Assembly (NCBI GenBank): GCA_002470695.1
Contig: DKNM01000101.1
Span: 9,241 to 44,116 of the forward strand
DNA length: 34,876 nt
Reading direction: 5' to 3'
Source: Candidatus Neomicrothrix sp. UBA7388
GTDB lineage: Bacteria > Actinomycetota > Acidimicrobiia > Acidimicrobiales > Poriferisodalaceae
In this document: positions 17,445 through 33,384 of the stretch, piece after piece
How the letters are laid out: every line of letters starts with the position of its first letter
Numbering within the stretch: the first letter of the stretch is position 1
Made by a program: the position numbers and the translations under genes
The notes under the pieces: generated by a model
What the model saw: the letters and a program-made list of their open reading frames with translations, nothing else
What the model was told of the DNA's origin: nothing
Databases searched by the model: none

Positions 17445-18721
17445 AAACTGCTTCCCCTCCAACAACAGTGACACTCGTTCGAAAACAATTAGATAGCCCG
17501 GTGGATTTACTTGCTCTTTGGGCAAATTCTCAAGTCACACAAAAAGCTTATTGGGCAATACCGGAACAAGATTTTGAATTCGTTGCATTAGGCGTTTGCG
17601 CCAGTTTCAAAACGAACGACAGACGCAACCGCTTTCAACGAATCCGGGAACTTATAGAGGAAGTCGAAATCAACGTCGAAGGTGATGCAGGCCCTGAGTT
17701 CAGTGCCGGCGTGCTGATTGGCGGCTTTTCGTTCAGTAACAGACAGATAGAGCGTCACCCAAATTGGTCGGCGTTCGGAGGCGGAGAACTAGTTCTTCCT
17801 GAAATTTTCGCAATTCGCTCGGGGAAAGAAACCTGGATTACTCGAACCGAAGGCTCTGAAATACCCGATCTAAATGGGACATTGAGTAGCGACCTTGGTT
17901 GGACAACTAAGCCCGATCATCAGACCGACCCGGCCTATCTAAGACTTGTCTCATCAGCTCTGCGTGAGATTGAAGCCGGACTTATGGACAAAGTCGTCAC
18001 AGCGCGTTCGCTTACCATCTCAGCTGATCTCAGTGCCGGAGCGGTCCTAAGGCGCCTAAAGGAGCGTCACCCTTCATGTGCAACTTTCGCTTTCACTCAA
18101 GGTACTCAGGTTTTCCTAGGCGCCAGCCCGGAACGGCTCGTAGGTGTCAATCAAGACAGGGTTGAGACTGCAGCGCTAGCCGGGTCGCGACCTAGGCATG
18201 AACACCCTGGAGCCGACGCTCGCTTGCGGGCGGAACTTCTCGCAGATCCAAAAGAACGAAGGGAGCATGAAATCGTTATCCGAGATATCAAGGACTGTTT
18301 AAACGCTGCAGGGGTGCGGCTCAACGAACCAATAACTACTGGAGTAATGAAGTTGCGCCAGATTCAACATTTACATACGCCTATCTCGGGTTCATTACCG
18401 ACGAGCGGTCGTATTCTTGACTTGGTAGAAGTGCTCCACCCGACGCCAGCCGTAGCTGGACTGCCTCGTGAATCAGCTCAAGACTGGATTGACGACAACG
18501 AAGCCATGGACCGCGGTTGGTACGCTGCACCAATCGGGTGGATGACACTAAATGGCAGCGGAGAATTTAGAGTGGCGCTTCGATCAGCACTCCTTACCAG
18601 GGATTCTTTAACTCTGTTTGCCGGCGGTGGCATTGTCGAAGGCGCAACTCCGGCTCAGGAGCTCGCCGAAACGGCAACCAAGTTTGAAGCTCTTCTCGGC
18701 GCTCTTGACTTAAGCCCCTAA
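17441..18721 (+). CDS. menF: Isochorismate synthase (MenF)
   Basis: This enzyme isomerises chorismate to isochorismate, the first committed step of o-succinylbenzoate-type menaquinone synthesis. The 426 residues carry the chorismate-binding enzyme blocks in the C-terminal half: GASPERLVGV (from about 227), LAGSRPRHE, the EHEIVIRDI magnesium-site glutamates, HLHTPISG (about 309-316), HPTPAVAGLP and GWYAAPIGW. Anthranilate or aminodeoxychorismate synthases belong to the same superfamily, but the direct coupling to menD makes isochorismate synthase by far the best call. It overlaps merR by 4 bases and is followed after 5 bases by menD. Confidence 0.93.
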   Translation: MKTASPPTTVTLVRKQLDSPVDLLALWANSQVTQKAYWAIPEQDFEFVALGVCASFKTNDRRNRFQRIRELIEEVEINVEGDAGPEFSAGVLIGGFSFSNRQIERHPNWSAFGGGELVLPEIFAIRSGKETWITRTEGSEIPDLNGTLSSDLGWTTKPDHQTDPAYLRLVSSALREIEAGLMDKVVTARSLTISADLSAGAVLRRLKERHPSCATFAFTQGTQVFLGASPERLVGVNQDRVETAALAGSRPRHEHPGADARLRAELLADPKERREHEIVIRDIKDCLNAAGVRLNEPITTGVMKLRQIQHLHTPISGSLPTSGRILDLVEVLHPTPAVAGLPRESAQDWIDDNEAMDRGWYAAPIGWMTLNGSGEFRVALRSALLTRDSLTLFAGGGIVEGATPAQELAETATKFEALLGALDLSP

Positions 18722-18726
18722 GACCT

Positions 18727-20430
18727 ATGTCTGAAGATTCCGTCTATCAAGCATGCGCTACCTTCGCAATGGAGTTGGCAAACCAAGGCGTGGCGCACGC
18801 CGTTATTTCGCCCGGTTCGCGATCGACACCGCTAACCCTTACCTTTGCCCAAACACCGGGAATCACAACTTGGACGAGACTCGACGAACGCTCAGCAGCT
18901 TTCTTCGCTTTAGGCATAGCGAAAACCTCGGGCGTACCAGTGGCATTGGTTTGCACTTCAGGCACTGCGGCCTCAAATTATCTCCCAGCTATTACAGAAG
19001 CCAACCTAAGCGACATACCCCTCATAGTTCTAACAGCCAATCGCCCTCCCGAACTCAGAGATTGGGGGGCTGCGCAGACCATCACTCAAACCAATATTTA
19101 TGGCGACAACGTCCGGTGGTTTGAGGAACTTCCCATCTTCGACAAATCAAACGCATCCTGGTTTCAACGAGTCGCAGCGCGCGCTTACCAGACATCCATA
19201 GGATCACGTCCCGGCCCGGTTCATCTCGACTGGCCTTTTCGGGAGCCGCTCGAGCCAGTTAGCAACTTCTCGCTTCCCGAAAATAGTCCAAAGATTAGGG
19301 CTACCAATCCAACCCAACGACTAGCACCTGAAGTGAACAATGAAATTGCGGCCGTTATCGAAAATGCCTCGCAGGGCCTCGTGATCGCCGGGCCAATGAA
19401 TCAGGGATCCCAGTGGCACGACGCAGTCGCTCTTCTTTGCAAACGGACCGGTTTCCCCTTGTTAGCAGATCCACTTTCACAGCTTCGCTTTGCTCAAGAA
19501 GACGTGCAAGTCATCACACATCACGACCATCTGTTACGAACTTCGTGGGCTGATCGAGCAGTCCCCGAGGTCGTAATTCGTGTAGGCGGTCCACCTACCT
19601 GCAAACCGCTCCGACTTTGGTTGGAACGGCACCAACCCAGGATGATCATGTTTGACCCAGCAAACACTTGGGCGGACCCTAGCTTCACGGTGACAGACCT
19701 AGTCCCAGTTGGACATGAGGGCCTTGGAGAAATAGCGCTGATAGTCCAAGATCGAGTATCTGACAAGTCATGGGGCCCGCGTTGGGTGAATGCGGATACT
19801 TTAGCGGGCGAAACCATTAACGAAATCCTCGATAGTGAACGGTTATCTCAACCAGCTATAGCTCGAGAAATCGGGCGTCAACTTTCAGCAGCAGATGCTC
19901 TCTACGTATCAAATTCAATGCCTGTTAGGGATATCGATAGTTTCTTGGAAGCCGACACGAGCCTCTATCGAATATTCGGCAACCGCGGGGCTAGCGGCAT
20001 TGATGGCGTGATTTCAAGCGCCGCGGGCGCAGCGGTTCAGGGGAAAGCAACGACGCTGCTAATCGGAGATCTTGCCTTTCAACACGACATCGGCGGCCTC
20101 ATTGCTACCAAAAACGATGGAAGTGACTTAACTATCCTTCTACTCGACGATAACGGCGGTGGCATATTCAACTATCTGCCGATTGCTCAGGTCACTGAGT
20201 CTCAGCTATTTTCTGAATTCTTCACCACGCCACAGGGACTGAATTTCTCTGAGCTAGTCAAGTCTTTAGGTATCGCTTATCACGAAGCACCGGATCTTAA
20301 CTCGCTTAAGGATCTTCTTAAAACTCGCAACGGCCTGCGGGTAATCCGGGTACCAATTGACTCGTCCTTTGACATCGACCAGCACCGTCGCCTGGCAGCA
20401 GCTGTTGAAGAAGCAACCGCAGGATTATGA
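18727..20430 (+). CDS. menD: 2-succinyl-5-enolpyruvyl-6-hydroxy-3-cyclohexene-1-carboxylate synthase (MenD)
   Basis: This thiamine diphosphate enzyme joins 2-oxoglutarate (after decarboxylation) to isochorismate to give SEPHCHC. The 567 residues match the family. The N-terminal ISPGSRSTPL (27-36) is diagnostic for MenD. The DERSAAFFALG segment contains the cofactor-activating glutamate, and the C-terminal magnesium/ThDP motif runs from LLIGDLAFQHD (about 444) to the LLDDNGGGIFNYLP block. It starts with ATG 5 bases after menF and ends in a 4-base overlap with menH, so the two are probably translationally coupled. Confidence 0.96.
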   Translation: MSEDSVYQACATFAMELANQGVAHAVISPGSRSTPLTLTFAQTPGITTWTRLDERSAAFFALGIAKTSGVPVALVCTSGTAASNYLPAITEANLSDIPLIVLTANRPPELRDWGAAQTITQTNIYGDNVRWFEELPIFDKSNASWFQRVAARAYQTSIGSRPGPVHLDWPFREPLEPVSNFSLPENSPKIRATNPTQRLAPEVNNEIAAVIENASQGLVIAGPMNQGSQWHDAVALLCKRTGFPLLADPLSQLRFAQEDVQVITHHDHLLRTSWADRAVPEVVIRVGGPPTCKPLRLWLERHQPRMIMFDPANTWADPSFTVTDLVPVGHEGLGEIALIVQDRVSDKSWGPRWVNADTLAGETINEILDSERLSQPAIAREIGRQLSAADALYVSNSMPVRDIDSFLEADTSLYRIFGNRGASGIDGVISSAAGAAVQGKATTLLIGDLAFQHDIGGLIATKNDGSDLTILLLDDNGGGIFNYLPIAQVTESQLFSEFFTTPQGLNFSELVKSLGIAYHEAPDLNSLKDLLKTRNGLRVIRVPIDSSFDIDQHRRLAAAVEEATAGL

Positions 20431-21233
20431 GATTCCTCTGCGACGGCATAAATCTTGAAGTGGACCAAGTAGATAGCGGACAGCCAGTCTTGCTTATTCA
20501 TGGCTTCACCGGTGCTGGGGTCACCATGCGACCACTAGCTACTCGCCTCGACGGACACAAAATCATGCCCGACTTAATTGGCCACGGGAAAAGCGAAGCT
20601 CCCGCCCAACTATCCCCTTACACATTGCCGAGCATGTCAAAGCAACTATCTGAACTGCTACACCAACTAGGCACAGAACGAGCGGCAGTAGTCGGTTACT
20701 CCTTTGGGGGCCGTATTGCTCTGAACTTTGCGCTAAGCCACCCCCACCATGTTGAGTCTTTGACTCTCATCGGAGCCTCCCCGGGAATTTATGATGACGA
20801 TGCTCGCGAACAGAGAAGACTGGCCGACTTGCAATTAGCAAATTCCATTTCTCAGAATGGACTCAGATTTTTTATCGAAAAATGGCTTTCTATGCCCATG
20901 TGGGAAAGTTTGCGCGAGCACATGACACGAGAGCAATTAGAAAATTCCATCATTCAACGACTCAGCAGCCACCCATTAGGTCTCGCGAACAGTCTTCGCG
21001 CAGGCGGTACAGGAAACATGGCGCCCCTCCATGAACAGATCGCCGATATCGCCTTTCCAACGTTGCTCGTTACCGGAGATCGCGATCTCAAGTTTCTCAA
21101 TATTGCGCGAGAAATGTTAAAGGACCTACAAAAAGGATCTTTGAAAGTAATTCAAGGTGCCGGTCACGCCACGCACATCGAGCGACTCGACGAAACGGCT
21201 GAAGTTATAAATAGGCACTTGTCATGCAAATAA
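20427..21233 (+). CDS. menH: SHCHC synthase-type alpha/beta hydrolase (MenH)
   Basis: MenH removes pyruvate from SEPHCHC to give 2-succinyl-6-hydroxy-2,4-cyclohexadiene-1-carboxylate. This 268-residue alpha/beta hydrolase has the HGFTGAG oxyanion segment (25-31), the nucleophile S92 in GYSFGG, an acid residue D218 or D220 in VTGDRD, and H247 in GAGHATHIE. Its position between menD and menC, with short overlaps on both sides (4 and 10 bases), supports the assignment. Without context it could only be called an alpha/beta hydrolase. Confidence 0.88.
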   Translation: MRFLCDGINLEVDQVDSGQPVLLIHGFTGAGVTMRPLATRLDGHKIMPDLIGHGKSEAPAQLSPYTLPSMSKQLSELLHQLGTERAAVVGYSFGGRIALNFALSHPHHVESLTLIGASPGIYDDDAREQRRLADLQLANSISQNGLRFFIEKWLSMPMWESLREHMTREQLENSIIQRLSSHPLGLANSLRAGGTGNMAPLHEQIADIAFPTLLVTGDRDLKFLNIAREMLKDLQKGSLKVIQGAGHATHIERLDETAEVINRHLSCK

Positions 21234-22171
21234 GGCTCGCTACTCGGACACTTCGACTACGCCAACCTTTACGGACCGCTCACGGAACTACCACCGAGCG
21301 TCACTCTGTCGAAATTGCAATATCGGATCAGGGGCTAGTAGGCCACGGCGAAGCCGCCCCCCTCCCCGGCTTTGGCTTGGAGAGCTTCGATGATGCTCTT
21401 CATTCGCTCCAAGAATGGGCTAACGATCATCATAAATTTCCGACCTCGCCTGCGGCGCGCAGTGCTGCGTTAGCTGCTCTTGATGATTTAGCGGATGCCA
21501 AAACGAACAAAGTCAAGCCCCCGGCGTCCGTGCTTGTTCAAGCGCTCGTCGGAGCAACCGATTTGGAAGGAATGAAAGAAGAAATCCAAGCTGCTGTTAG
21601 GCATGGCTACAAGGGAATTAAATTAAAGGTCGGATCGACGGATCCTGAAACTGACTATAGAAGAATTTGCGAAGCCATTGAGCTAACTCACGCCAGTACC
21701 ACGTTGCGCCTTGACGCAAACGGAGGCTGGTCAGCCGAGGAAGCTATGAGCGTTCTCCGCCCTATTGAGAGCAGATTCGTAGATCTAATTGAAGAGCCAA
21801 CATCCAACCCATCGGATTGGCAAAAGATTGCCGACACAACAGGCCTTCTTCTAGCGGCAGACGAGAACCTAGTCAACGAAAAGCAAGTCGAAGGTCTACT
21901 GATGAACGCCGCTGTGGGCGCATTAATTTTGAAGCCTTCGATACTCGGCGGCGCATCCGGAACAAGATCAATCGCAGAGTTAGCGGCCGAAAATAAGTTA
22001 AGAGTGATCATCTCGTCATTCCTTGACGGTCCAATTGCGCTCCGAGCCGCTAGAGATCTGGCAATAGAATTGGCGCCAAAAGAGATTCACGGCCTAGGAA
22101 CAGCAGGTCTCTTTGTTGAAAGATTTCCCAAGGATGTAACCCCCGATCAGGGCTATCTGCACCGGTCGTAA
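21224..22171 (+). CDS. menC: o-Succinylbenzoate synthase (MenC)
   Basis: An enolase-superfamily dehydratase that converts SHCHC to o-succinylbenzoate. The 315 residues show the muconate-lactonising fold signature KLKVG with base K135, metal ligands D164 (LRLDANGGW), E190 (IEEP) and D213 (ADE), and the second base K237 (LKPS). Dipeptide epimerases and N-acylamino acid racemases share these motifs, but the operon position fixes the call. The start ATG overlaps the end of menH by 10 bases. It is the last gene of the plus-strand men operon and ends 17 bases from the convergent menE. Confidence 0.92.
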   Translation: MQIRLATRTLRLRQPLRTAHGTTTERHSVEIAISDQGLVGHGEAAPLPGFGLESFDDALHSLQEWANDHHKFPTSPAARSAALAALDDLADAKTNKVKPPASVLVQALVGATDLEGMKEEIQAAVRHGYKGIKLKVGSTDPETDYRRICEAIELTHASTTLRLDANGGWSAEEAMSVLRPIESRFVDLIEEPTSNPSDWQKIADTTGLLLAADENLVNEKQVEGLLMNAAVGALILKPSILGGASGTRSIAELAAENKLRVIISSFLDGPIALRAARDLAIELAPKEIHGLGTAGLFVERFPKDVTPDQGYLHRS

Positions 22172-22188
22172 CTTCTTACCGAGCGGGA

Positions 22189-23289
22189 CTACAGGCGATG
22201 GCGTTCGACCTTACCTAGAGAGGTTTTAGGCAACTCGGCCACAAACTCAACTGAACGTGGAGCGCAATATGCTGGTAGGTGTTCCCTGACGAAGTCACGA
22301 AGAGATTCAAGAGTTGGAACTTTTTTATCCGGCTTTACGACAGCAACCACTATCTCGCCCCATTCAGGGTCGCTACGACCGGTAATCGCGCATTCAACCA
22401 CTCCTGGGGCTTTCATCAAAATCCGCTCAACGGCCGCTGGCCAGACGTTTTCGCCGCCAGTAATAATCATTTCGTTTACGCGGCCGTGGACACTCAAGAG
22501 GCCCGAGGAATCGATTTCACCTGAGTCACCGGTTGGATACCAACCGTCATGAGTAAAAGCCTCGCTGCCATCCCGGTAACAACGAAACAACATTGGACAA
22601 CGAATCTGGATTTCTCCCTTCACAGTCCTTAGTTCCACACCTCGCAACGCCTGCCCGTTATAAACAACCCCGCTACCGGTCTCAGTCATCCCGTATGTAG
22701 CAATGACGTTCGCGGGGCGATTCACAGGCACCGAGGAGCCACCTACTAAAATTTTTCTGAACAAGCTCGCATCGATTCGCTGCATCGCAGTGGGCACTAG
22801 AGATACGAGCGAAACTCCCTCACGCGCCGCTGACGTAACCAATTCTGCATCGAAGCCATCATGGACTTCTAATGCTATTCCAGCTTGTAATGCACGAACG
22901 ATGACCGAAAAACCGCCAACATGACTTAAGGGGAGGCAAGCTAACCATTTATCTAAGCCAGCTTGTACTTCGAGGAACTCGTTCGTAGCCAAAGCATTAG
23001 CCGCAAGCGCGCTGTGCGTTAGTACTACACCCTTCGGCGCGCCTGTACTGCCGCTAGTCGCCACAACCAAAGCATCACCGCTCTCTACCGGCCTACCAGG
23101 AAGCGTGGTAGTACCGTCGCGCTCAACAACAAGGGATGCTCCCATGCGACGAATCAAGTCTTGTTGAGATTTTTTAGGGAGTCGTTGATCAATCGGCAAA
23201 ACTGCGTCCCCGTTTTCCCAGACGTTTTGCACTGCGTCAACGAACAATTGTCCGCCGGGGAGACAAAGCGCTGCAAGACGGTTCACCAT
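22189..23289 (-). CDS. menE: o-Succinylbenzoate-CoA ligase (MenE), short actinobacterial form
   Basis: This AMP-forming ligase activates o-succinylbenzoate to OSB-CoA. It has 366 residues rather than the roughly 450-500 of other ligases because the N-terminal lobe is reduced; short forms of this size are normal in Actinobacteria. Motifs are TSGSTGAPKG (78-87), the CLPLSHVGG block, TYGMTETG, YPTGD, GRVNEMIITGGENVWP and a C-terminal TSLGK with the catalytic lysine. It faces the menF-D-H-C operon, so the pathway is split over two convergent transcripts. Upstream on its own strand lie the TSUP gene and psuG, with which it may be co-transcribed. An in-frame GTG follows the ATG directly. Confidence 0.92.
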   Translation of the reverse strand: MVNRLAALCLPGGQLFVDAVQNVWENGDAVLPIDQRLPKKSQQDLIRRMGASLVVERDGTTTLPGRPVESGDALVVATSGSTGAPKGVVLTHSALAANALATNEFLEVQAGLDKWLACLPLSHVGGFSVIVRALQAGIALEVHDGFDAELVTSAAREGVSLVSLVPTAMQRIDASLFRKILVGGSSVPVNRPANVIATYGMTETGSGVVYNGQALRGVELRTVKGEIQIRCPMLFRCYRDGSEAFTHDGWYPTGDSGEIDSSGLLSVHGRVNEMIITGGENVWPAAVERILMKAPGVVECAITGRSDPEWGEIVVAVVKPDKKVPTLESLRDFVREHLPAYCAPRSVEFVAELPKTSLGKVERHRL

Positions 23290-23302: not shown

Positions 23303-23330
23303 GCCTTCTAGATCGCCCGAACTAGAAGGC
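23303..23330 (-). repeat. 9-bp inverted repeat spanning the TSUP stop codon
   Basis: GCCTTCTAG (23303-23311) and CTAGAAGGC (23322-23330) pair perfectly around a 10-base loop. The stem includes the stop codon and last codons of the TSUP gene and lies 14 bases upstream of the menE start. There is no U-run on either strand, so it is more likely an RNA stability or translation-coupling element than an intrinsic terminator. Confidence 0.45.
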
Positions 23331-24045
23331 TGACGGTGCAAGCCATAATTACGCAAGTGACCGCCGCATCAAAACGCTCGGCATTTAATCGACGTCCCAG
23401 TCGAATACCTAGGGGAAGCGCAATCGCGACTACCAAACAAGCGAATAGCGCCGCCATGATTCGAAACTCCGACCACTGGCCAATGATTGTCAACGTTGCT
23501 AGCTGGCTAATACCTGTCAATAAGAAAATCGCAGCGTTGGAGGCAACAAACCGCTCACGAGGCACACCTAATCCCTGAAACCAAGCCGCCACTAGAGGCC
23601 CGGAAATCCCAATCGCGCCTTGAGCTACACCACAGGTAACCGCTACTGGGGTTCTAGCGACTTTTTGAAACCTTTGAGACCATCGCGGCTCTTTTGCTGA
23701 GAATTTCCAGATCAAAAACGCTATTAACGCCGATGCGAGAAATAGGAGCAAGATGCGCTCTTCAACTCTGACCAGCAACCAAGCGCCCAGAATCGCTCCT
23801 ACAGCTCCCAACGCAGCAAATGAGGCCAAGCCGAGATTGTCGCGAAATTCAGATCGGTATTCTCTAACTAGCATCGCGTTACTTACCGCAGTTGGGGCAG
23901 ACATAATCACTACTGCGTCTTGAATCCCAACGAACGACGCCATAACAGGTACGGCAGTTAGTGGCAGACCAAGCCCAGTCGTGCCTTTGACCACCGATCC
24001 CAATATGACTGCGGTTGCTATAACAAGCAACTCTTCGAAACTCAT
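23308..24045 (-). CDS. TSUP family membrane transporter (TauE/SafE type)
   Basis: A 245-residue, very hydrophobic protein with about seven to eight predicted membrane spans. It opens with a glycine-rich stretch (GSVVKGTTGLGLPLTAVP, about 16-33) and has a related repeat GVAQGAIGISGPLVAAWF near the middle (about 140-157). This duplicated G-x-GG-like pattern is typical of the TSUP (DUF81) family. Characterised relatives export sulfite or small organosulfonates; the substrate here is unknown. The start overlaps the stop of psuG by 4 bases (ATGA), so it is probably co-expressed with that gene. Confidence 0.85.
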   Translation of the reverse strand: MSFEELLVIATAVILGSVVKGTTGLGLPLTAVPVMASFVGIQDAVVIMSAPTAVSNAMLVREYRSEFRDNLGLASFAALGAVGAILGAWLLVRVEERILLLFLASALIAFLIWKFSAKEPRWSQRFQKVARTPVAVTCGVAQGAIGISGPLVAAWFQGLGVPRERFVASNAAIFLLTGISQLATLTIIGQWSEFRIMAALFACLVVAIALPLGIRLGRRLNAERFDAAVTCVIMACTVSLLVRAI

Positions 24046-24941
24046 AACGCCGCTAATTCAACGGCGACACGTGCAGCTATAGACGCATTATTCTCCGCTA
24101 GTGCCAGATTTGCCGCAACACTCTGACCTTCGGTCGCAGTTTCGATAGCTGCCAGAACATGCGGCGTGATTTGGGCGCCAGAAATTTTTTGCTGCTCTAC
24201 TCGCGCGAGGCTTTCGGCTATCGCTGCATTGATACTCTGCGCGTCTAACTCCGCATCTTCGGGTATCGGCACAGCGAGGAGACTCCCACCTTGACCAAGG
24301 GCTCGCCTTGATTGGTGAATCTTGGCAACCTCTAACGCGCTATCAACTCGATGACCGACACGCAGGCCCGAGTTTCGGGTATAGAACGCAGGGAAATCAT
24401 ATGTTTTCCATCCAAGAACTGGGACCGAGTGCGTCTCTAAAAATTCCAGTGTTCGAGGTAAGTCAAGAAAAGCCTTGGCGCCTGCACTCACTACGAGAAC
24501 ATTACGCCGGGCAATAGCATTGAGGTCTGCCGAGATATCCCCAGTTTCAGCACTCGAGCGGTGAACTCCTCCGATGCCCCCTGTGGCAAAAGTCTTGATG
24601 CCGGCACGTTCGGCTATAGCCAAGCTGGCGGAGACAGTAGTTACGCCTTCCGCTAATTCTTGGGCAGTAGCTACCGATAAGTCTCGTTCCGCAATTTTTA
24701 CTCCACATGAGAGAACACGCTGATGCAATTCCGTCGGAACGCCGGCCCATATACGTCCATCAATAACCGCAGTGAGTGCCGGAACGGCGCCAAGTGCGCG
24801 GATCGCACTCATGCAACGATCGAGAGCTTGTTCATTTGCCGGTGATGGGAGGCCCAAATTTGAAAAGATTGTCGTTTCAAGAGCCACTACCGGCTTTAAA
24901 GCTGAAAGGGCTGAACTTACTTCGTCGTTGGAATCAATCAT
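24042..24941 (-). CDS. psuG: Pseudouridine-5'-phosphate glycosidase
   Basis: PsuG reversibly breaks the C-C glycosidic bond of pseudouridine 5'-phosphate to give uracil and ribose 5-phosphate. Family blocks are VALETTIFSNLGLP (19-32, with catalytic-site E22), the CGVKIAERDL lysine segment, TFATGGIGGVHR, the DISADL metal site and VVSAGAKAFLDLPRTLE with its conserved lysine. I chose the ATG at 24941 (299 residues) because GAGGAG lies 6 bases upstream. The in-frame ATG at 24983 has no such site. No pseudouridine kinase (psuK) is in the window. The product uracil is the substrate of the divergent upp gene, whose start is 71 bases away. Confidence 0.92.
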   Translation of the reverse strand: MIDSNDEVSSALSALKPVVALETTIFSNLGLPSPANEQALDRCMSAIRALGAVPALTAVIDGRIWAGVPTELHQRVLSCGVKIAERDLSVATAQELAEGVTTVSASLAIAERAGIKTFATGGIGGVHRSSAETGDISADLNAIARRNVLVVSAGAKAFLDLPRTLEFLETHSVPVLGWKTYDFPAFYTRNSGLRVGHRVDSALEVAKIHQSRRALGQGGSLLAVPIPEDAELDAQSINAAIAESLARVEQQKISGAQITPHVLAAIETATEGQSVAANLALAENNASIAARVAVELAAL

Positions 24942-25012
24942 CTGCCGCTCCTCGATGCCTCCAGCATGGCAGTCATTCTGCATCTAGCCGCGCCTGCTTC
25001 TACTGTGTGGTT

Positions 25013-25633
25013 GTGTTTACTCTCCTTGATCACCCTCTAATCTCCTCATATACCGACCGACTACGATCATCGACAACCGGAACCGAGGAGTTTCGTCAAC
25101 TGCTCCGTCAAATAGCGCAGTTAATGCTTCCCTTTGCCACACAAGACTTACCAACAACCGAAATCTCGATATCTACACCCCTTCAAGAGACAAGAGGGGT
25201 TCAGATAACTGGAGGTTCGCCGGTACTTATTTCGGTGCTCAGAGCCGGTAACGGTCTCCTGGACGGCGTTCTGACACTCCTACCAGACGCGGATATTGGC
25301 TATATCGGCCTCGCAAGAAACCACGAAACGCTGGAAGCAGAGGAATACCTTGTAAAGCTCCCTGACGTTTCAAATCGCCGCGTGCTCATTGTTGACCCAA
25401 TGCTTGCAACTGGACACACCGCCGTTGCAACACTTGAGCGAGTAATGAAGGGAAATCCTGCGGAGATAACGATGATGAACGTAGTCGCGTCACCTGAAGG
25501 CGTGGCGCACGTTGAAGCTCACCACCCAGAGGTTCATATTGTCTGCGCTGCATTAGATTCAGGTTTGAATGACTCAGGCTATATTTTGCCGGGCTTAGGC
25601 GACGCGGGTGATCGATTGTACGGAACACAATAA
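25013..25633 (+). CDS. upp: Uracil phosphoribosyltransferase
   Basis: This enzyme makes UMP from uracil and PRPP. From the GTG at 25013 the product has 206 residues, the normal length, and begins FTLLDHPLISSYTD like family N-termini. A longer frame back to 24776 would run antisense through psuG and is not credible. Motifs are LISVLRAGNGLLDG, the PRPP loop VDPMLATGHT and the uracil-binding GYILPGLGDAGDRLYGT. The PRPP loop normally reads ATGGT or ATGGS, so the second glycine is a histidine here. It overlaps the next gene, mtnA, by one base (TAATG). No obvious Shine-Dalgarno sequence is visible, and a GTG at 25007 is an alternative start. Confidence 0.9.
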   Translation: MFTLLDHPLISSYTDRLRSSTTGTEEFRQLLRQIAQLMLPFATQDLPTTEISISTPLQETRGVQITGGSPVLISVLRAGNGLLDGVLTLLPDADIGYIGLARNHETLEAEEYLVKLPDVSNRRVLIVDPMLATGHTAVATLERVMKGNPAEITMMNVVASPEGVAHVEAHHPEVHIVCAALDSGLNDSGYILPGLGDAGDRLYGTQ

Positions 25634-26691
25634 TGAAGCAACCGACACCACCCATAGAGTGGGTGGACGATCACATACGAATCATTGATCAAACACTGTT
25701 ACCGAGTGAGCTAAAAATCATTGAGATCAGAACTGCTGCCCAAGCTGTCGATGCAATCCAACGCCTGGCAATCAGAGGAGCTCCAGCTCTAGGGGCCTTT
25801 GGGTCGCTAGCTCTCGTAGTTGCATTAGACGAATATCATTCAAAGTCTCTTAACGAAGCTATTAGCCATCTGGAGAGTTGCAGAGTATCAATAGGGGACG
25901 CGCGCCCCACAGCGGTTAATTTGCGTTGGGCAGTAGATCGTGTCATCGATCGAGCCATCGCCAGGTCAAGCGATCTAGAAAATCTGAGAGACAACCTCCT
26001 TCGCGAAGCTCATTTGGTGGCAGCCGAAGACGCTGAGGCTTGCGCAGAAATAGGTCGTCTCGGTCGCGAACTATTGCGCGACGCCGTCGTTATCGGCACT
26101 CACTGCAATGCTGGCCGACTAGCTACTGCGGGAACAGGGACCGCCTTAGCGCCTATGTATGCAAAATTCGAAGCCGGGGAAAAACTCCGGGTCCTAGCCT
26201 CCGAGACGCGCCCATTGCTTCAGGGAGCGAGGCTCACAGCCTGGGAACTCAACGACGCGGGAATCGACGTGACTGTCGTACCCGATGCAGCTATGGCCTC
26301 AACAGTACTTTCGGGCGAGGTCGACGCTTACATAGTCGGCGCCGACCGGATTGCCGCTAACGGCGACGCAGCTAACAAAGTGGGCACCGTTGCTCATGCG
26401 TTGGCTGCACAAGCGGCAGGAATTCCATTTTACGTTGCAGCGCCAACGTCGACCATTGACGTTCAACTGGAACTTGGTTCAGAGATCGAAATTGAGCAAC
26501 GCGATGCCAGCGAGGTCCATGAGATTCGGGGGGAAAGACTCACCCCCCTTGGTGTGAGTGCAGCGAATCCTGCGTTTGATGTGACACCAAATCACTTGAT
26601 TACTGCAATCATTACGGAGGCCGGAGTGCTGAAACCTCCATTTATGGATTCAATAGCTAAAGCAATGGGACGGGTCGGAGGATCGGCATGA
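25633..26691 (+). CDS. mtnA: S-methyl-5-thioribose-1-phosphate isomerase
   Basis: MtnA interconverts 5-methylthioribose 1-phosphate and 5-methylthioribulose 1-phosphate; homologues also act on 5-deoxyribose 1-phosphate. The 352 residues show RGAPA (48-52), the catalytic cysteine C158 in THCNAG, ETRPLLQGARLTAWEL (191-206) and D238 in GADRIAANGDAANK. These distinguish it from the related eIF2B and ribose-1,5-bisphosphate isomerases. It lies in a tight plus-strand operon upp-mtnA-aldolase/dehydrogenase, with overlaps of 1 and 4 bases. The next gene could act directly on its product. Confidence 0.93.
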   Translation: MKQPTPPIEWVDDHIRIIDQTLLPSELKIIEIRTAAQAVDAIQRLAIRGAPALGAFGSLALVVALDEYHSKSLNEAISHLESCRVSIGDARPTAVNLRWAVDRVIDRAIARSSDLENLRDNLLREAHLVAAEDAEACAEIGRLGRELLRDAVVIGTHCNAGRLATAGTGTALAPMYAKFEAGEKLRVLASETRPLLQGARLTAWELNDAGIDVTVVPDAAMASTVLSGEVDAYIVGADRIAANGDAANKVGTVAHALAAQAAGIPFYVAAPTSTIDVQLELGSEIEIEQRDASEVHEIRGERLTPLGVSAANPAFDVTPNHLITAIITEAGVLKPPFMDSIAKAMGRVGGSA

Positions 26692-28661
26692 AAAACCAAT
26701 GGGACGCGAACGAAGCCGCTCTATTCGAGGGTCCGCTCGGAGAATGCGTCTACGGGTCACGAGTGCTAGGCGCGAACCCGAGCTTAGTTTTGCACGGCGG
26801 TGGCAATACATCGGTTAAGACTGTCGGTCACGACATTCACGGCGACGAAATAGAGATTTTGTATGTCAAAGGCAGCGGCTGGGATCTGGCAACTATTGAA
26901 GCAGAAGGTTTCGCTCCTCTTCGCCTAAACGAGGTCAGACGATTGGCTGAACTTCCGGAGCTCACCGATACGGAAATGGTGAATCAACTAAGACTTAACC
27001 TTCTCGATGCTTCAGCGCCGAACCCTTCGGTCGAAGCGATACTTCATGCTTCGTTGCCCTTTCAAGCAGTGCAACATACCCATGCAGACGCCGCTCTCGC
27101 CCTCACAAATACCGAAGATGGGGAGCGTCGAGTAAGGGAGCTATGGGGAGCAACGGTTGTCATAGTCCCTTACGTAATGCCTGGCTTCGACTTGGCGAAA
27201 GTCTGCGCAGTCGAATTCGAGAAGCAAGCAACAGCTGACACTGTCGCGATGGTGCTCATGAACCATGGGGTTTTTACCTTCGGTGACACCACAAAGCAGG
27301 CATACGACTCGATGATTGAAGTGATTACTGCGGCAGAAGAGTACTTATCTAGCCAAGCCGGGGTAGATATCAATTCCTCAGCAACCAAATCTGGCCCAGA
27401 TCTCACCGGGACCTCAGCAATCAACCAGGCTTCGTTGAGAAAACAATTGTCAGATGCCGCGCGTCGCCCAATGCTTTTGAGTCGAACCTCCAACAAATCC
27501 GCTGCCGAGTTTGCGAAGCGAAGCGATCTAGCCGAAATAGCTACAAGAGGTCCAGCAACCCCCGACCACATAATTCGAACCAAACAATTCCCACTAATAG
27601 GTCGAGATATCGACAAATTTATCTCGAATTACCATGACTACTTTGAACGCAATAGCCACCGTTTCCCCGGGGTGCAGCAACTAGACCCAGCACCACGAGT
27701 GGTTCTTGACCCTGAATTAGGCCTTCTAACAGCTGGAGTGAAGATCAGCGATTGCAGCATCGCCGCCGATATTTATCTGCACACAATCGACGTGGTCGAG
27801 GCAGCCGAAGCGCTGGGCGGCTTCGTAGCACTTCCCGAATCAGATCTTTTCGAAGTCGAATACTGGGAACTTGAACAAGCCAAATTAAACAAATCCAATG
27901 CAACACCTCCCCTATCGGGCGAGGTGGCGCTAGTCACTGGTTCAGCTTCTGGTATCGGGTCGGCATGCGCTCACGCGCTCCTTAGACAAGGCGCGTCTGT
28001 TATCGGAATCGACCTGAATAACGACGACGGTTCCGACACCGCAAGTTTTCTTCAACTCCAAGCTGACGTAACAAATAGAGCATCTTTACTAGCGGCCGTT
28101 GAAGAGGGTGTGCGGCACTTTGGAGGAATCGACATTTTGGTTGCGGCTGCTGGCATTTTTGGCGTATCTCATGAGATCGCGAAGATTATCGAAACCGATT
28201 GGGAACAGACACTCGCAGTCAATTTGAATGGGGTCAGTAATCTATTTCACGTCGCCCACCCCTATCTAGCACTTGCCCCTAAAGGCGCTCGGGTTGCTCT
28301 TGTGGGATCAAAAAACGTTTTAGCACCTGGCAAAGGTGCAGCGGCTTATAGCGCGTCGAAAGCCGCCGTTACCCAGCTCGGTCGCGTCGCCGCTCTTGAA
28401 TGGGCAGAAGACGGAATCGTAGTAAACACGATTCACCCCGATGGTATTTTCGATACCGGACTCTGGTCAGAATCGTTAATAGAAGAAAGAGCAAGCCGTT
28501 ACGGCCTTACAACCTCTGAGTACAAGAAACGGAATCTCCTCGGCAAAGAAATAACCAGTAACGATGTTGGCGAACTTGTCGCGATCATGTGTGGACCATC
28601 GTTCAGCCGCATCACTGGTGCGCAGATCCCGGTAGACGGAGGGAGCGACCGAGTAATTTAA
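26688..28661 (+). CDS. Bifunctional class II aldolase / short-chain dehydrogenase fusion
   Basis: Two enzymes in one 657-residue chain. Residues about 15-395 are a class II (zinc) aldolase: HGGGNTS (36-42), E116, zinc ligands H130 and H132, and H193 in NHG. Residues about 408-657 are an SDR: TGSASGIG (417-424), AAAG (486-489), S541, Y554 and K558, and a C-terminal PVDGGSDR. Such fusions are known as rhamnulose-1-phosphate aldolase/lactaldehyde dehydrogenases (YuxG/RhaE-like). No rhamnose gene is present here. The direct 4-base overlap with mtnA suggests instead that it cleaves 5-methylthio- or 5-deoxyribulose 1-phosphate to dihydroxyacetone phosphate and an aldehyde, then converts the aldehyde. 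Fold is certain; substrate is inferred. Its stop codon overlaps that of the convergent ABC ATPase gene. Confidence 0.85.
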   Translation: MKNQWDANEAALFEGPLGECVYGSRVLGANPSLVLHGGGNTSVKTVGHDIHGDEIEILYVKGSGWDLATIEAEGFAPLRLNEVRRLAELPELTDTEMVNQLRLNLLDASAPNPSVEAILHASLPFQAVQHTHADAALALTNTEDGERRVRELWGATVVIVPYVMPGFDLAKVCAVEFEKQATADTVAMVLMNHGVFTFGDTTKQAYDSMIEVITAAEEYLSSQAGVDINSSATKSGPDLTGTSAINQASLRKQLSDAARRPMLLSRTSNKSAAEFAKRSDLAEIATRGPATPDHIIRTKQFPLIGRDIDKFISNYHDYFERNSHRFPGVQQLDPAPRVVLDPELGLLTAGVKISDCSIAADIYLHTIDVVEAAEALGGFVALPESDLFEVEYWELEQAKLNKSNATPPLSGEVALVTGSASGIGSACAHALLRQGASVIGIDLNNDDGSDTASFLQLQADVTNRASLLAAVEEGVRHFGGIDILVAAAGIFGVSHEIAKIIETDWEQTLAVNLNGVSNLFHVAHPYLALAPKGARVALVGSKNVLAPGKGAAAYSASKAAVTQLGRVAALEWAEDGIVVNTIHPDGIFDTGLWSESLIEERASRYGLTTSEYKKRNLLGKEITSNDVGELVAIMCGPSFSRITGAQIPVDGGSDRVI

Positions 28662-30184
28662 GCTGAGCTCTTAGAATCGGTGATTCCAGCCATCAGAAGG
28701 CCAATCTTCTCCCTGTTTGAGTCTTCGGCATCGAGAACATCCATGAGTTCTCCGTCATAAAGCACAGCAATCCGGTCGGAAAGACCCAAGATTTCATCTA
28801 ACTCAGCAGATACCAGCAGAACCGCAGTACCTTTATCGCGCTGATCCAAAATCCGACGATGAATGAATTCGATTGCTCCAATATCGATTCCGCGGGTTGG
28901 CTGAGCCGCTACAAGCAAATCAATGTCGTCACTAAATTCTCTGCCGACAATTAGCTTCTGTTTGTTACCGCCGCTGAGACTTGATGCTGGTACCGAGGTG
29001 CTAGGCGTCCTGACATCAAACTCGTCAACTACTCCCTCCGCATGCCGCTTTATAACGTCACGTCGAAGAAAGCCCCGTAGAGAGAAGGGTTTGCGGTGAT
29101 AACGATTAAGTACGGAATTTTCTTCAAGAGAATAAACGCCAATAAGACCGTGTTTTTCGCGATCTTCCGGAATGTGGGCAACTCCTTTTTCTGCGATTTG
29201 TCTCGTGGACCCAGAAGTGAATTCATCACTGCCGATCTTCATTAAGCCTGATGACAAACCCCGAAGTCCCGTGATCGCTTCCACAAGCTCTCTTTGACCA
29301 TTTCCCTCTACACCTGCGACGCCGAGAATTTCACCTTCGCGAACTTCGAAACTCACTTCATTGAGAGCAATTTGACCCCGATCATCCTCAACCGAAAGCT
29401 TTTCAAGTTCGAGCACTACGTCCCCAGGTTCTGCAACCGACTTGTCGACTCGCAGCATCACGCTCCTGCCAACCATCATTTCTGCAAGACCATTCTCACT
29501 TGTTTCACCAGGTGTTGTTTGCCCGACCACCTCGCCGTTGCGTAAAACAACGATGTCGTCTGCGACTGCAAGCACCTCACGCAACTTATGAGTAATGAAC
29601 ACTACTCCGAGCCCCGTTTGCGTTAATTCACGGAGCACACCGAGCAAGTGATCCGCTTCTTGCGGAGTCAGAACCCCTGTGGGTTCATCCATTATCAACA
29701 CGTCGGCGTTCCGGTAAAGAGCTTTCAAGATTTCCACCCGCTGCTGCATACCTACCGGAAGATCTTCCACCACCGCATCAGGATCGATTTCCAGACCATA
29801 CCGACGAGATAACTCAATAACGCGCCGTCGAGCCTCACCTAAATCGACGAGACCTCTAAGAACCGGTTCCGCTCCAAGCACGATATTTTCCACGACTCGC
29901 ATCGGAGGCACCAACTGAAAATGTTGATGAACCATACCGATACCTCGCGATATAGCATCATCTGGGCCGCGCAGATCTACCCTTTCGCCCTTGATAATCA
30001 CATGACCTTCATCAGGTCGGTACATGCCGAAGAGGATGTTCACGAGAGTGCTTTTGCCAGCTCCATTTTCACCTAGGAGAGCCAGGATGCGTCCTCTTTC
30101 AAGCTGCAGGGAGACCTGGTTGTTAGCAAGAACACCGGGGAAACGCTTTGAGACGTCATGAGCACCTAGAAGAATTTCCGACAT
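28658..30184 (-). CDS. Nucleoside/BMP-type ABC transporter, tandem ATPase
   Basis: A 508-residue protein with two fused ATP-binding domains. The first has an intact Walker A, GENGAGKST (38-46), a Q-loop, Walker B VLIMDEPT and a degenerate signature LPVGMQQR. The second has a degenerate Walker A (GVEGNGQRE), a good signature LSGGNKQK and the TRGIDIGA segment. This asymmetry is usual for ATPases paired with RbsC-like permeases in sugar and nucleoside uptake. I chose the ATG at 30184 because GAAGGG lies 6 bases upstream; a TTG at 30190 is too close to it. It is the last gene of the bmp-permease-permease-ATPase operon. Confidence 0.92.
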   Translation of the reverse strand: MSEILLGAHDVSKRFPGVLANNQVSLQLERGRILALLGENGAGKSTLVNILFGMYRPDEGHVIIKGERVDLRGPDDAISRGIGMVHQHFQLVPPMRVVENIVLGAEPVLRGLVDLGEARRRVIELSRRYGLEIDPDAVVEDLPVGMQQRVEILKALYRNADVLIMDEPTGVLTPQEADHLLGVLRELTQTGLGVVFITHKLREVLAVADDIVVLRNGEVVGQTTPGETSENGLAEMMVGRSVMLRVDKSVAEPGDVVLELEKLSVEDDRGQIALNEVSFEVREGEILGVAGVEGNGQRELVEAITGLRGLSSGLMKIGSDEFTSGSTRQIAEKGVAHIPEDREKHGLIGVYSLEENSVLNRYHRKPFSLRGFLRRDVIKRHAEGVVDEFDVRTPSTSVPASSLSGGNKQKLIVGREFSDDIDLLVAAQPTRGIDIGAIEFIHRRILDQRDKGTAVLLVSAELDEILGLSDRIAVLYDGELMDVLDAEDSNREKIGLLMAGITDSKSSA

Positions 30185-30186
30185 AC

Positions 30187-31179
30187 TCAACCCTTCTCGT
30201 ACGTCTGGCCAAGAGCAGCCGGATCGCGCATCGACCCGATGAGGCCACTAAGGGCTACGACAAGGATTGTGACGATAAAGGGGAGCATGCCTACAAATTG
30301 CGGCGGGATATCAAAGGTATTATTTAATTGAAACTGGTTCTGAAGAGCAGTTGTAAATCCAAAGAACAACGCTGCTGCGTAGGCCCCGAACGGAGTTCGA
30401 CGGCCGAAAATCATAACCGCAAGCGCTAAGAATCCTCGACCTCCCGACATCGCGCGGCTGAACGTACCCACCGCTTCAAGAGCAAGATAAGCCCCTCCTA
30501 AACCCGCTAATCCTCCTGCAATAGTCACATTAAAATAGCGAAGTCGCAGCACATCGATGCCGACCGTGTCAGCGGCACCGGGGTGTTCTCCAATCGCTCG
30601 AGTACGCATTCCCCAGACTGAGCGGAACAAAGCAACGTGAACGACGATCAACAAAGCCATCGTCAAATACGTAAGTGGCGGGCGACTGAACAAAACCGTG
30701 CCGACAAGGGGTATATCTGCAAGTGGGCCTAAGTCAATGTTTGTGTACTTACCTACGCCGAGCGAACGGCTGCGGTCGTAAAAGAAGGAGGTCAAGCCCA
30801 GTGCTGCAATGTTGAGAACCGTTCCTGCAATAATTTGATCGACTTTCAGACCAACCGCCATAGCGGCAAGCATCCAACCCATGAGCAGTCCCATACCGAT
30901 TCCGGCAATCGTTCCAAGGAACAAAGAACTGGTCATAGAGGCAACCGTGAATGCCGCGAAAGCTGAAAGCAAGAATTGGCCTTCTATACCTATGTTCACT
31001 ACACCTGACCGCTCACCGATCATTCCACACATCGCCCCAAGCGCCAGGAGTGTTGCAGCCCGAACCGTTCCAGCAAGAACAGCTGTAGTTTGTGGGCCGT
31101 TCGCTGCGTAGAAGATCCAAATGACAACAAGCAATACAATTAGGCCCGCATAGAGCAGCCGTTTTTGGTGGAGCTTCAT
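30187..31179 (-). CDS. ABC transporter permease, nucleoside type (second permease)
   Basis: A 330-residue integral membrane protein of the BPD_transp_2 (LivH/RbsC) superfamily with about eight to ten predicted spans. The block GERSGVVNIGIEGQFLL (about 55-71) and the later segment MRTRAIGEHPGAADTVGID (about 194-212) are hallmarks of permeases paired with BMP lipoproteins (YufQ/NupC-like). It overlaps the upstream permease gene by 4 bases and the ATPase frame follows directly, so the three should be made together. The likely substrates are nucleosides, by family; which ones is unknown. Confidence 0.92.
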   Translation of the reverse strand: MKLHQKRLLYAGLIVLLVVIWIFYAANGPQTTAVLAGTVRAATLLALGAMCGMIGERSGVVNIGIEGQFLLSAFAAFTVASMTSSLFLGTIAGIGMGLLMGWMLAAMAVGLKVDQIIAGTVLNIAALGLTSFFYDRSRSLGVGKYTNIDLGPLADIPLVGTVLFSRPPLTYLTMALLIVVHVALFRSVWGMRTRAIGEHPGAADTVGIDVLRLRYFNVTIAGGLAGLGGAYLALEAVGTFSRAMSGGRGFLALAVMIFGRRTPFGAYAAALFFGFTTALQNQFQLNNTFDIPPQFVGMLPFIVTILVVALSGLIGSMRDPAALGQTYEKG

Positions 31180-32246
31180 GACCTCCCCCAGCCAGCTCCG
31201 AGTTGAAGTTGCTCTGAAGCGTCATGACGCATCCGCAAAACCCAGCGCAGAATAATAGGTGCAGCTACGAAAAATAGAATCAAGGCCTGGATGACGTCAA
31301 TCAGTTCCGGGGCCACTCCGGCCTTAAATTGCATCCGAGCTGCACCGGCTTCCATTAGACCGACTAATAGAGCGGCGGGCACCACTCCAAGCGGATTAGC
31401 ACGCGCGAGCAGCGCGATCGTGATTCCCTCGAAACCAAGACCTACGTTAACCCCCGCCTCAAATCGGCCATCAACTCCCAGACTTTCTACGGCTCCGCCA
31501 AGACCAGCCAAGAGTCCCGCGACTGCCATGGTCAAAGCCATAATTCGGCCGACCCTGATACCCGCGTAATCCGCTGCATGTCTATTATTTCCCACGCTTT
31601 TGACTTCAAAGCCGAAAGTCGTGCGCTCAAGAATCATCCAACAAGTAATCGCCGTGATCACAGCGAGCAGGAATCCGACTGGGACCGCTCCAAAGGTAGG
31701 GATAACGGCCGAATCTTCGACTAAGGGAGTGCGCGCAACAATGTTGCTGCCAGAATTATCCTTCCAAGGATTAGCTGCCAACCAATCAGTCAAATTGCCA
31801 GCAACAAAATTGAGCATGATGGTCACGATCACTTCGTGAGCACCAGTCGTCGCCTTTAACGTACCGGCAATTCCGCCCCAGACTGCCCCTGCTATTCCAC
31901 CCGCCAACAACGCCACCGGTAAGTGAATAACCAGGGGTAAACCGTCGATTCCAAAGCCAACCCCTGCTGCAAAAACAGCCCCAACAAGCAATTGGCCCTG
32001 TCCCCCGATATTGAACATGCCTGCTTTGAACGCAAAAGCTACGGCAAGTCCGCCAAAAATCAACGGTGTTGCTTTCTGGAGCGTACGCAGAACAGCGTCG
32101 GAATCTCCAGCGCCGCCAACTAGCAACGCCTTGTAGGCAGTTCCTGGAGACGCATTTTGCGTCAAGATAAGAATCGCTCCGATAACTAATCCGAAGACGA
32201 CCGCTGCAATCGGGATAGAAATAGTTCTAAGTAAGGAACGGCTCAT
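31176..32246 (-). CDS. ABC transporter permease, nucleoside type (first permease)
   Basis: A 356-residue membrane protein related to YufP/NupB-type permeases. Visible features are an N-terminal span (about 8-30), the segment ATPLIFGGLAVAFAFKAGMFNIGGQGQLL (about 59-87, family signature FNIGGQGQ), and the EVKSVGNNRHAADYAGI loop (about 214-230). It pairs with the next permease to form the heterodimeric channel. It is separated from the upstream lipoprotein gene by 58 bases that hold a very stable hairpin (32258-32288). That hairpin may keep permease expression below that of the binding protein. Confidence 0.92.
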   Translation of the reverse strand: MSRSLLRTISIPIAAVVFGLVIGAILILTQNASPGTAYKALLVGGAGDSDAVLRTLQKATPLIFGGLAVAFAFKAGMFNIGGQGQLLVGAVFAAGVGFGIDGLPLVIHLPVALLAGGIAGAVWGGIAGTLKATTGAHEVIVTIMLNFVAGNLTDWLAANPWKDNSGSNIVARTPLVEDSAVIPTFGAVPVGFLLAVITAITCWMILERTTFGFEVKSVGNNRHAADYAGIRVGRIMALTMAVAGLLAGLGGAVESLGVDGRFEAGVNVGLGFEGITIALLARANPLGVVPAALLVGLMEAGAARMQFKAGVAPELIDVIQALILFFVAAPIILRWVLRMRHDASEQLQLGAGWGRS

Positions 32247-32257
32247 AACGCGACTCG

Positions 32258-32288
32258 GGGGGCACTATCCGCAACGGATAGTGCCCCC
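32258..32288 (-). repeat. Perfect 14-bp hairpin between binding-protein and permease genes
   Basis: GGGGGCACTATCCG (32258-32271), loop CAA, CGGATAGTGCCCCC (32275-32288) form a perfect 14-bp stem. On the transcribed minus strand it follows the lipoprotein stop codon by 16 bases and precedes the first permease by 11. No U-run follows, so complete termination is unlikely. mRNA stabilisation of the lipoprotein message or partial attenuation, as between other binding-protein and permease genes, is the best explanation. Confidence 0.7.
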
Positions 32289-32304
32289 ACAGAGTTATAT
32301 CCGC

Positions 32305-33384
32305 CTATTCGGGCATCGGGTTTATTGACCCGTCTGCAAGGCCGGCTCGTACTTCTTCGATCGTTGCACGCATTTCGTCAGTGACCATGCTTTCGAAATC
32401 GTGATACGGAGCTATATCAACGTCACCCAGGAAGTTACCACCCGTAAGAGTTCCGGCCTTGGCCGCAACCAATAGGTCGGCAACACCCTTGACGATGTCT
32501 TTCATCGCACTAGTAACCAAGCAGGGGTGAGCTTCGGGCACCGTTCCCCACTGATCCCAGTCAACGCCTACACAGAGAGCTCCTTCTTCAGTCGCCACTT
32601 CGATGAGAGCACCGTTACCGGTCGCTCCACCTGCACCGAAAATGATGTCGGCTCCTTGGTCAAGCGCCTGTCGGGCAGTTGTCGCACCCCACTCTGGGTC
32701 TCCGAAAGCAACGTCTAATCCACCAGGGTGGTAGGTCGAGATGGTCTGAACATCAGGATTTGTGTATTTTGCTCCGTTTTCCCAGCCTTCTTTGAAAAAG
32801 ACGACCGGTGGGACAAGGTCAGTACCAAGGACCGCGCCCACGATATTGGTCTTTGTCAGCATTCCAGCAAGGGCACCGGCAAGGAACCCGGACTTAGCTT
32901 CTTCAAAGACCAGTCCAGCTAAATTAGGAATAGCTTCGCCTTGAAACTGGTCAACACCGATAAAGAGCACATCGGGGTTCGCTTGGGCTGCCTCTATCGT
33001 CGCTTCACCTAAACCGAAACCGACAGTGATGATAACGCTCGCCCCGTCATCTAAGAACAACTGAATATTGTTTGCATAGTCCTTGGACTCTTCAGTTTCA
33101 ATGTAGTCAGTAGTCGCACCTTCAATTTGGGCTGCGCCTGCAAGTGCGCCTTCCCACGCGGATTGGTTGAAGGCTTTATCGTCAACCTTCCCGGTATCCG
33201 TTACTAGACCAATCTTGAACTCTTCTACTGGCTCCTCTTCTGCTGGCGCCTCTTCTTCAGCACTACTGCTGCTGCCCGATTCGCTGCCACTGCTACTTGA
33301 AGAGTCGCTATCGCTTCCGCATGCCGCTGTTAAGAGTCCAAAGACCATTAACAGAGCAAGGAAACGCCGCCACATCGAAGTCAT
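32305..33384 (-). CDS. BMP family substrate-binding lipoprotein (nucleoside ABC transporter)
   Basis: The extracellular binding component of the transporter. A lipoprotein signal peptide occupies residues 1-21, with LLTAAC putting the lipidated cysteine at C22. A low-complexity Ser/Asp/Glu linker (about 23-53) tethers the domain. The BMP (PnrA/TmpC-like) domain follows with FKIGLVTDTGKVDDKAFNQSAWEG (about 56-79), IITVGFGLGEAT, LFIGVDQ, the ADIIFGAGGATGNG block and VGVDWDQWG. BMP proteins studied so far bind purine or broad-range nucleosides. The ATG at 33384 is preceded by AAGGATGGGA. It heads the transporter operon and has a structured leader (33402-33445). Confidence 0.94.
   Translation of the reverse strand: MTSMWRRFLALLMVFGLLTAACGSDSDSSSSSGSESGSSSSAEEEAPAEEEPVEEFKIGLVTDTGKVDDKAFNQSAWEGALAGAAQIEGATTDYIETEESKDYANNIQLFLDDGASVIITVGFGLGEATIEAAQANPDVLFIGVDQFQGEAIPNLAGLVFEEAKSGFLAGALAGMLTKTNIVGAVLGTDLVPPVVFFKEGWENGAKYTNPDVQTISTYHPGGLDVAFGDPEWGATTARQALDQGADIIFGAGGATGNGALIEVATEEGALCVGVDWDQWGTVPEAHPCLVTSAMKDIVKGVADLLVAAKAGTLTGGNFLGDVDIAPYHDFESMVTDEMRATIEEVRAGLADGSINPMPE

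Follow-up and report, generated by a model that had tools for sequence, protein, structure and literature searches.

A class II aldolase-dehydrogenase fusion coupled to mtnA in Candidatus Neomicrothrix sp. UBA7388, a candidate variant of the dihydroxyacetone phosphate shunt

We analyzed a window of 34,876 nucleotides from Candidatus Neomicrothrix sp. UBA7388 (contig DKNM01000101.1 of assembly GCA_002470695.1, positions 9,241 to 44,116), in which mtnA is coupled to a gene that fuses a class II aldolase with a short-chain dehydrogenase/reductase (SDR) on one chain. We favor, with moderate confidence, the reading that this operon is a variant of the dihydroxyacetone phosphate (DHAP) shunt led by 5-deoxy and 5-methylthio sugars, with the last two steps united in a single protein. 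Both halves of the fusion retain their characteristic residues, the gene recurs beside mtnA in several phyla, and the mtnA-linked sequences are distinct from the fusions of rhamnose loci. The substrates of the fusion, the redox direction of its second step, and any physical channeling of the aldehyde between its halves are predicted.

The fusion and its linkage to mtnA

The mtnA gene accounts for the single PF01008 match of the genome and shares bases 26688–26691 with the fusion gene, a 4-base overlap. Its C158 and D238 we take to be the positions that are catalytic in the MtnA of B. subtilis. In the fusion, a middle region separates the class II aldolase domain from the SDR domain, and the protein passed the curated cut-off of NF006196, the ‘bifunctional aldolase/short-chain dehydrogenase’ model of the PRK08324 type (Table 1). 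The aldolase half carries GGGNTS at position 37, KGSGWD at 61, and E116, together with the metal ligands H130, H132, and H193, while the SDR half carries TGSASGIG at 417, D442, N512, S541, Y554, and K558. The Gly-rich loop and the N-S-Y-K catalytic set of a classical SDR are complete, the four residues having the individual roles familiar from such enzymes, and D442 presumably favors NAD. The overlap, the three histidines, the TGSASGIG motif, Y554, and K558 had been reported in an initial annotation made from the sequence, and all were found where it had placed them. E116 aligns with a Glu of the fuculose-1-phosphate aldolase 2opi, and we infer that it corresponds to Glu76 of DrdA, which has been proposed as the base of that enzyme (PMC6079011). 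An AlphaFold2 model of the whole chain had a mean pLDDT of 90.7 and a pTM of 0.88, and fold comparison returned the two known domain types, barely probing the middle region (residues ∼240–405).

A scan of named genomes yielded 78 loci, a sample biased to the query with many close Acidimicrobiales, and the 73 loci with a full-length fusion were counted. Five loci, each without one full-length fusion frame, stayed outside the counts (L072, L077, L081, L083, and L084), the first three having an mtnA match in the locus. Within the locus DNA, mtnA was present in 50 of the 73 relatives: in 41 it lay on the same strand no more than 411 bp from the fusion (22 upstream, 19 downstream), and in nine further loci the distance was 0.9–3.5 kb. 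Short flanks characterize 14 of the 23 relatives without mtnA nearby, and 38 of the 47 loci flanked by 5 kb or more on each side had mtnA. We also drew 129 genomes from one class, of which four had a full-length match above the NF006196 cut-off and a fifth (G074) had the fusion split over two contigs. All five fusion genomes carried mtnA on the same contig, 0.05–8.5 kb away, and any PF01008 match was found in only 39 of the 129. The linkage is not local chance, and the coupling pointed out in the initial annotation proved to be conserved.

This linkage spans Actinomycetota, Beta- and Gammaproteobacteria, an Opitutaceae, and others, and mtnA also adjoins the fusion in a plasmid record of Gemmatirosa. 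Actinomycetota that have both genes adjacent show mtnA followed by the fusion, while the reverse order is found in Beta- and Gammaproteobacteria and the Opitutaceae. Given that both orders occur, the pairing appears to have arisen more than once.

Differences from the fusions of rhamnose loci

Against TIGR02632, the model for the rhamnose fusion RhaEW, the fusion of the window scored 442.9 bits, under the cut-off of 567.75. For comparison, L094–L098 hold full-length fusions of the same class, under the NF006196 cut-off, that adjoin rhamnose isomerase and/or rhamnulokinase genes (the kinase only in L097), and four further rhamnose-side fusions (L104, L105, L106, and L108) are plasmid-borne and lie in annotated rha loci. 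An mtnA match was absent from L094–L098, as was mtnA from the listings of the four plasmid loci, and no rhaI or rhaB match was detected in any mtnA-linked locus.

These two sides also differ in sequence. Position 116 was Glu in 57 of 57 mtnA-linked sequences, the window included, and Asp in 10 of 10 from the rhamnose side, namely the nine just listed plus L109, which its annotation places there. These counts come from related sequences and are not independent events, and the less complete copies of G036 and G027 did not enter the comparison. Position 162 split likewise, with Tyr in all 57 and Trp in all 10, and Asn512 of the SDR half, present throughout the mtnA-linked set, was replaced by F, M, or L in every rhamnose-side sequence. 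Glu116 was shared by the sequences with short flanks (14/14) and by those with long flanks but without an assigned neighbor (13/13). The rhamnose-side sequences lack the classical SDR Asn at 512 although RhaEW enzymes have been described as active dehydrogenases (PMC3870299). Two trees were built, leaving out seventeen rows: near-copies for the most part, with two incomplete rows and L087. In the first, the five rhamnose-side rows formed one group with a support of 100. The second added six plasmid sequences: those of the four rha loci, L109, and L107, which has no assignment. Here the 66 rows outside the rhamnose side and L107 stayed together with a support of 100.

A rhamnose role of the fusion was rejected on gene context, genome content, and residues. 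The TIGR02632 cut-off was missed, the genome (91% complete) gave no RhaI match, and the fusion carries E116 and Y162. The initial annotation had likewise assigned the fusion away from rhamnose and noted that the locus has no rhamnose genes, and we saw none among the open reading frames (ORFs) of the window. A protein group that some databases name after rhamnose can be separated by gene context and one catalytic residue, so that such annotations could be corrected.

Proposed route and alternatives

In the proposed route, a phosphorylase would turn a nucleoside into a 1-phospho sugar, which MtnA would isomerize, perhaps along with ribose 1-phosphate, to a ribulose 1-phosphate. The aldolase half would split this product into DHAP and a two-carbon aldehyde, which would then be converted to an acid or an alcohol by the SDR half, an NAD-type domain of the same protein. 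MtnA and a phosphorylase or kinase would still be needed, and the ‘single-protein’ shunt suggested in the initial annotation does not hold in that form. Conversion of the aldehyde would remove a reactive product and pull a cleavage whose equilibrium favors condensation. This equilibrium is given as ∼1e-4 (PMC6079011), and RhaEW is described as forming neither DHAP nor lactate without NAD+ (PMC3870299). On these grounds, fusing the two steps would make thermodynamic as well as detoxifying sense, the pull on a backward-running cleavage being one reason for such a fusion. The redox step could run in either direction: the precedent of RhaEW is oxidation, with no activity with NADH in the same description (PMC3870299), whereas the retention of Asn512 and the reduced alcohol in which the described DHAP shunts end (PMC10986504; PMC5893883) would point the other way.

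The rest of the genome offers candidates for the upstream steps, which would probably be taken by a deaminase and a methylthioinosine-type phosphorylase encoded on another contig. Two PF01048 proteins were found, a DeoD-type phosphorylase encoded after ahcY and an MTAP/MTIP-type protein, whose gene lies directly 3′ of an amidohydrolase-family gene; this family includes deaminases of 5′-methylthioadenosine (MTA)/S-adenosylhomocysteine and of 5′-deoxyadenosine. The base-recognition stretch reads NFAAG in the MTAP/MTIP-like protein, NPAAG in 3ozb, and TDxD in four MTA phosphorylase-like chains. We take 3ozb to be a methylthioinosine phosphorylase, its entry reading methylthioadenosine phosphorylase, and the resemblance of NFAAG to NPAAG suggests that the protein of this genome may use methylthioinosine after deamination. 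Eight radical-SAM matches suggest that 5′-deoxyadenosine is made in this organism. As for mtnP and mtnK, for which the initial annotation had proposed a genome search, the former has this MTAP/MTIP-like candidate, while MtnK was represented by a 20.3-bit fragment match only. No match to MtnD (ARD, PF03079) was found in the 91% complete genome, and of its three PF00596 proteins one is the fusion and the others have PRK06208 as their best match, so that none was of the MtnB type. Classical methionine salvage was rejected on this basis, within the limits of a 91% complete genome, and the complete pathway that the initial annotation had named as a competing outlet for the MtnA product was not found.

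Gene neighbors in other genomes favor sugars from MTA or 5′-deoxyadenosine as the predicted substrate. In G034, an MTAP-type match follows that of mtnA at a distance of 51 bp; in G074, one precedes the match to the fusion by ∼24 bp; and in L079, an MTAP gene over cut-off adjoins mtnA. On plasmids of Mariluticola (L089) and Rhizobium rosettiformans (L102), mtnK and mtnA are found together ∼4–5 kb from the fusion.

Several points weigh against a DHAP-shunt variant. The MTAP/MTIP-like protein scored under both relevant cut-offs (234.3 against 274.85 and 220.3 against 223 bits), its gene is not on the contig of mtnA and the fusion, and the adjacent deaminase-family gene passes no curated cut-off. 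The aldolase half belonged to the Ald2/DrdA subfamily by none of the tests made, and the substrate, cleavage, and dehydrogenase activity of the fusion are predictions from sequence. Two fusion carriers, G058 and G082, had no MTAP-type match above 82 bits, and nine of the 47 long-flank loci had no mtnA, the rest of those genomes not having been searched for it. In the second tree, the split between the rhamnose side and L107 with the remaining rows had a support of only 40. The presence of upp in the operon is more in keeping with pyrimidine salvage than with the release of adenine. The ATP-binding cassette (ABC) importer convergent with the fusion possibly carries nucleosides; it also matches NCBIfam ‘putative B6 transporter’ models at scores below their cut-offs, and it could carry something else.

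The strongest alternative, absent from the initial annotation and in our view a real but clearly less probable explanation, is a general shunt for nucleoside ribose: imported ordinary nucleosides would be phosphorolyzed to ribose 1-phosphate, MtnA would form ribulose 1-phosphate, and the fusion would release DHAP and glycolaldehyde, the latter ending as glycolate or ethylene glycol. An upp-family gene is found directly 5′ of mtnA in 18 relatives (L007–L021 and L023–L025) as in the window, the BMP/PnrA-like importer stands beside the locus, and G058 and G082 fit here as well. A uridine-phosphorylase-like gene follows the fusion ORF by 4–7 bp in L036, L042, and L052 (the L042 copy at 141.7 bits, under the 280.3 cut-off), and in L038 and L091 the fusion is followed at ∼1.0 kb by a purine nucleoside phosphorylase over cut-off. 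The genome of the window has the DeoD-type phosphorylase and no match to the phosphopentomutase DeoB, the one phosphopentomutase family searched. Halophilic archaea have been described as cleaving nucleoside-derived ribulose 1-phosphate with a class II aldolase (PMC9700705), and a review notes that promiscuous methionine salvage enzymes allowed ribose conversion (PMC6302742). Against this stand the genes of MTAP or mtnK type that several lineages have beside mtnA and the fusion, the putative nature of ribose 1-phosphate use by this MtnA, and the lack of a uridine phosphorylase in the genome, which gave no TIGR02644 match and has none among its two PF01048 proteins. It is tentative, and slightly more doubtful still, that the two proteins, MtnA and the fusion, act as a bypass leading directly from the ribose 1-phosphate of any phosphorolyzed nucleoside to DHAP plus glycolate (or ethylene glycol), so that nucleoside carbon would need neither phosphopentomutase nor the pentose phosphate pathway. 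If true, such a bypass would operate in Acidimicrobiia of marine and sponge type and in several further phyla. The same enzymes may also act on both 5-deoxy/5-methylthio sugars and plain ribose 1-phosphate.

We consider it unlikely that mtnA and the fusion are co-transcribed yet serve different sugars, with the fusion family acting as general ketose-1-phosphate aldolase-dehydrogenases. The 23 members without mtnA nearby, short-flanked ones included, would fit this, as would the partners found in some loci (an LsrF-type gene with an FGGY kinase in L085 and UPF0261-type pairs in seven Bacteroidota loci) and, on the two plasmids, the transketolase parts and RuBisCO-like protein after mtnK and mtnA, another possible outlet of MtnA. 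However, mtnA and the fusion are repeatedly direct neighbors, in either order and across several phyla, and the genome of the window showed no outlet through MtnB or MtnD.

Some of these loci deserve description in their own right. L102 (5734–17115) carries the fusion, a sugar ABC transporter, mtnK, and mtnA, then split transketolase-type genes and a RuBisCO-like protein; L089 (6751–15784) has the same genes as far as the first transketolase part, where the stretch ends. A branch point after MtnA is a possible interpretation of this arrangement. Genes of the LsrF type (3-hydroxy-5-phosphonooxypentane-2,4-dione thiolase, over cut-off) adjoin the fusion in L053 (4842–5675), where the gene sits between mtnA and the fusion, and in L085 (6053–6934), where the FGGY kinase accompanies it. 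In the Bacteroidota loci (L054, L056, L057, L059, L064, L075, and L078), the fusion has two recurring neighbor families, one of them the PRK02399 ‘hypothetical protein’, and no mtnA was present in the locus DNA.

That the fusion is an ordinary RhaEW of L-rhamnose catabolism, beside mtnA by accident, is very improbable, since its identical architecture, its TIGR02632 match, and the database names of some family members that read RhaD are set against the missed cut-off, the lack of a RhaI match in the genome and of rhaI or rhaB matches in the mtnA-linked loci, and the residue split described above.

Neighboring genes and comparison with known systems

Upstream of mtnA, the upp ORF overlaps it by one base (25633); this ORF is longer than the gene, whose true start is probably near 25004. 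The pseudouridine-5′-phosphate-glycosidase-type gene and the importer genes are putative members of the system only (Table 1). The PF04227 gene shares 4 bases with a TauE/SafE permease gene (window 23308–24983, minus strand), and both families are represented side by side in the same 17 loci. The locus is preceded by a run of menF-, menD-, menH-, menC-, and menE-like genes of the classical menaquinone pathway (window 17441–23289), judged by eye.

Table 1. Features of the mtnA-fusion locus, in window coordinates.
Feature	Position	Strand	Evidence
mtnA, S-methyl-5-thioribose-1-phosphate isomerase, 352 aa	25633–26691	+	TIGR00512, 386.7 bits (cut-off 279)
Class II aldolase-SDR fusion, 657 aa	26688–28661	+	NF006196, 926.6 bits (cut-off 831), residues 1–657
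Class II aldolase domain, residues 30–220	26775–27347	+	PF00596; motifs; closest solved chain 3m4r
SDR domain, residues 409–653	27912–28646	+	PF13561, PF00106, and NCBIfam SDR models over 409–653; residues; fold
upp, uracil phosphoribosyltransferase	ORF 24776–25633	+	TIGR01091, 236.3 bits (cut-off 208.35), ORF residues 83–285
Pseudouridine-5′-phosphate-glycosidase-type protein (putative member)	24042–24983	-	PF04227, 320 bits; divergent from upp
Four-gene ABC importer (ATPase, two permeases, BMP/PnrA-like binding protein; putative member)	28658–33384	-	PF00005, PF02653 twice, PF02608

The observations of the initial annotation were confirmed and its interpretation was partly supported. No description of an mtnA-linked aldolase-SDR fusion was found in the open PMC literature, supplements excluded, although aldolase-dehydrogenase fusions as such are already known from RhaEW (PMC3870299). 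RhaEW belongs to the same family, with the same domain order of class II aldolase and NAD-type SDR on one chain, and has been described as forming DHAP and an aldehyde that is converted on that chain (PMC3870299). It differs in its substrate, L-rhamnulose 1-phosphate, in its placement, which its authors give as always within rha loci (PMC3870299), and, in the 10 sequences that we compared, in having Asp116 and Trp162 and no SDR Asn512.

The non-carboxylating pentose bisphosphate pathway of halophilic archaea (PMC9700705) resembles the ribose reading of this locus in taking nucleoside ribose to DHAP and glycolaldehyde via ribulose 1-phosphate and a class II aldolase. However, its route includes ribose 1,5-bisphosphate and employs a kinase as well as a phosphatase, and it has a separate glycolaldehyde reductase and no fusion. 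The DHAP shunt (MtnP or MtnN/MtnK, MtnA, and Ald2/DrdA) is described as converting 5-methylthio- or 5-deoxyribulose 1-phosphate to DHAP and an aldehyde, and shares with this locus the sequence of MtnA and then a class II aldolase (PMC5893883; PMC6079011; PMC10986504; PMC12632272). Its aldolase is free-standing, and reduction of the aldehyde falls to a separate alcohol dehydrogenase, putative and so far unidentified in the account cited (PMC5893883), whereas in this locus aldolase and dehydrogenase share one chain. The fusion represents a candidate for this aldehyde-converting enzyme, fixed to its aldolase.

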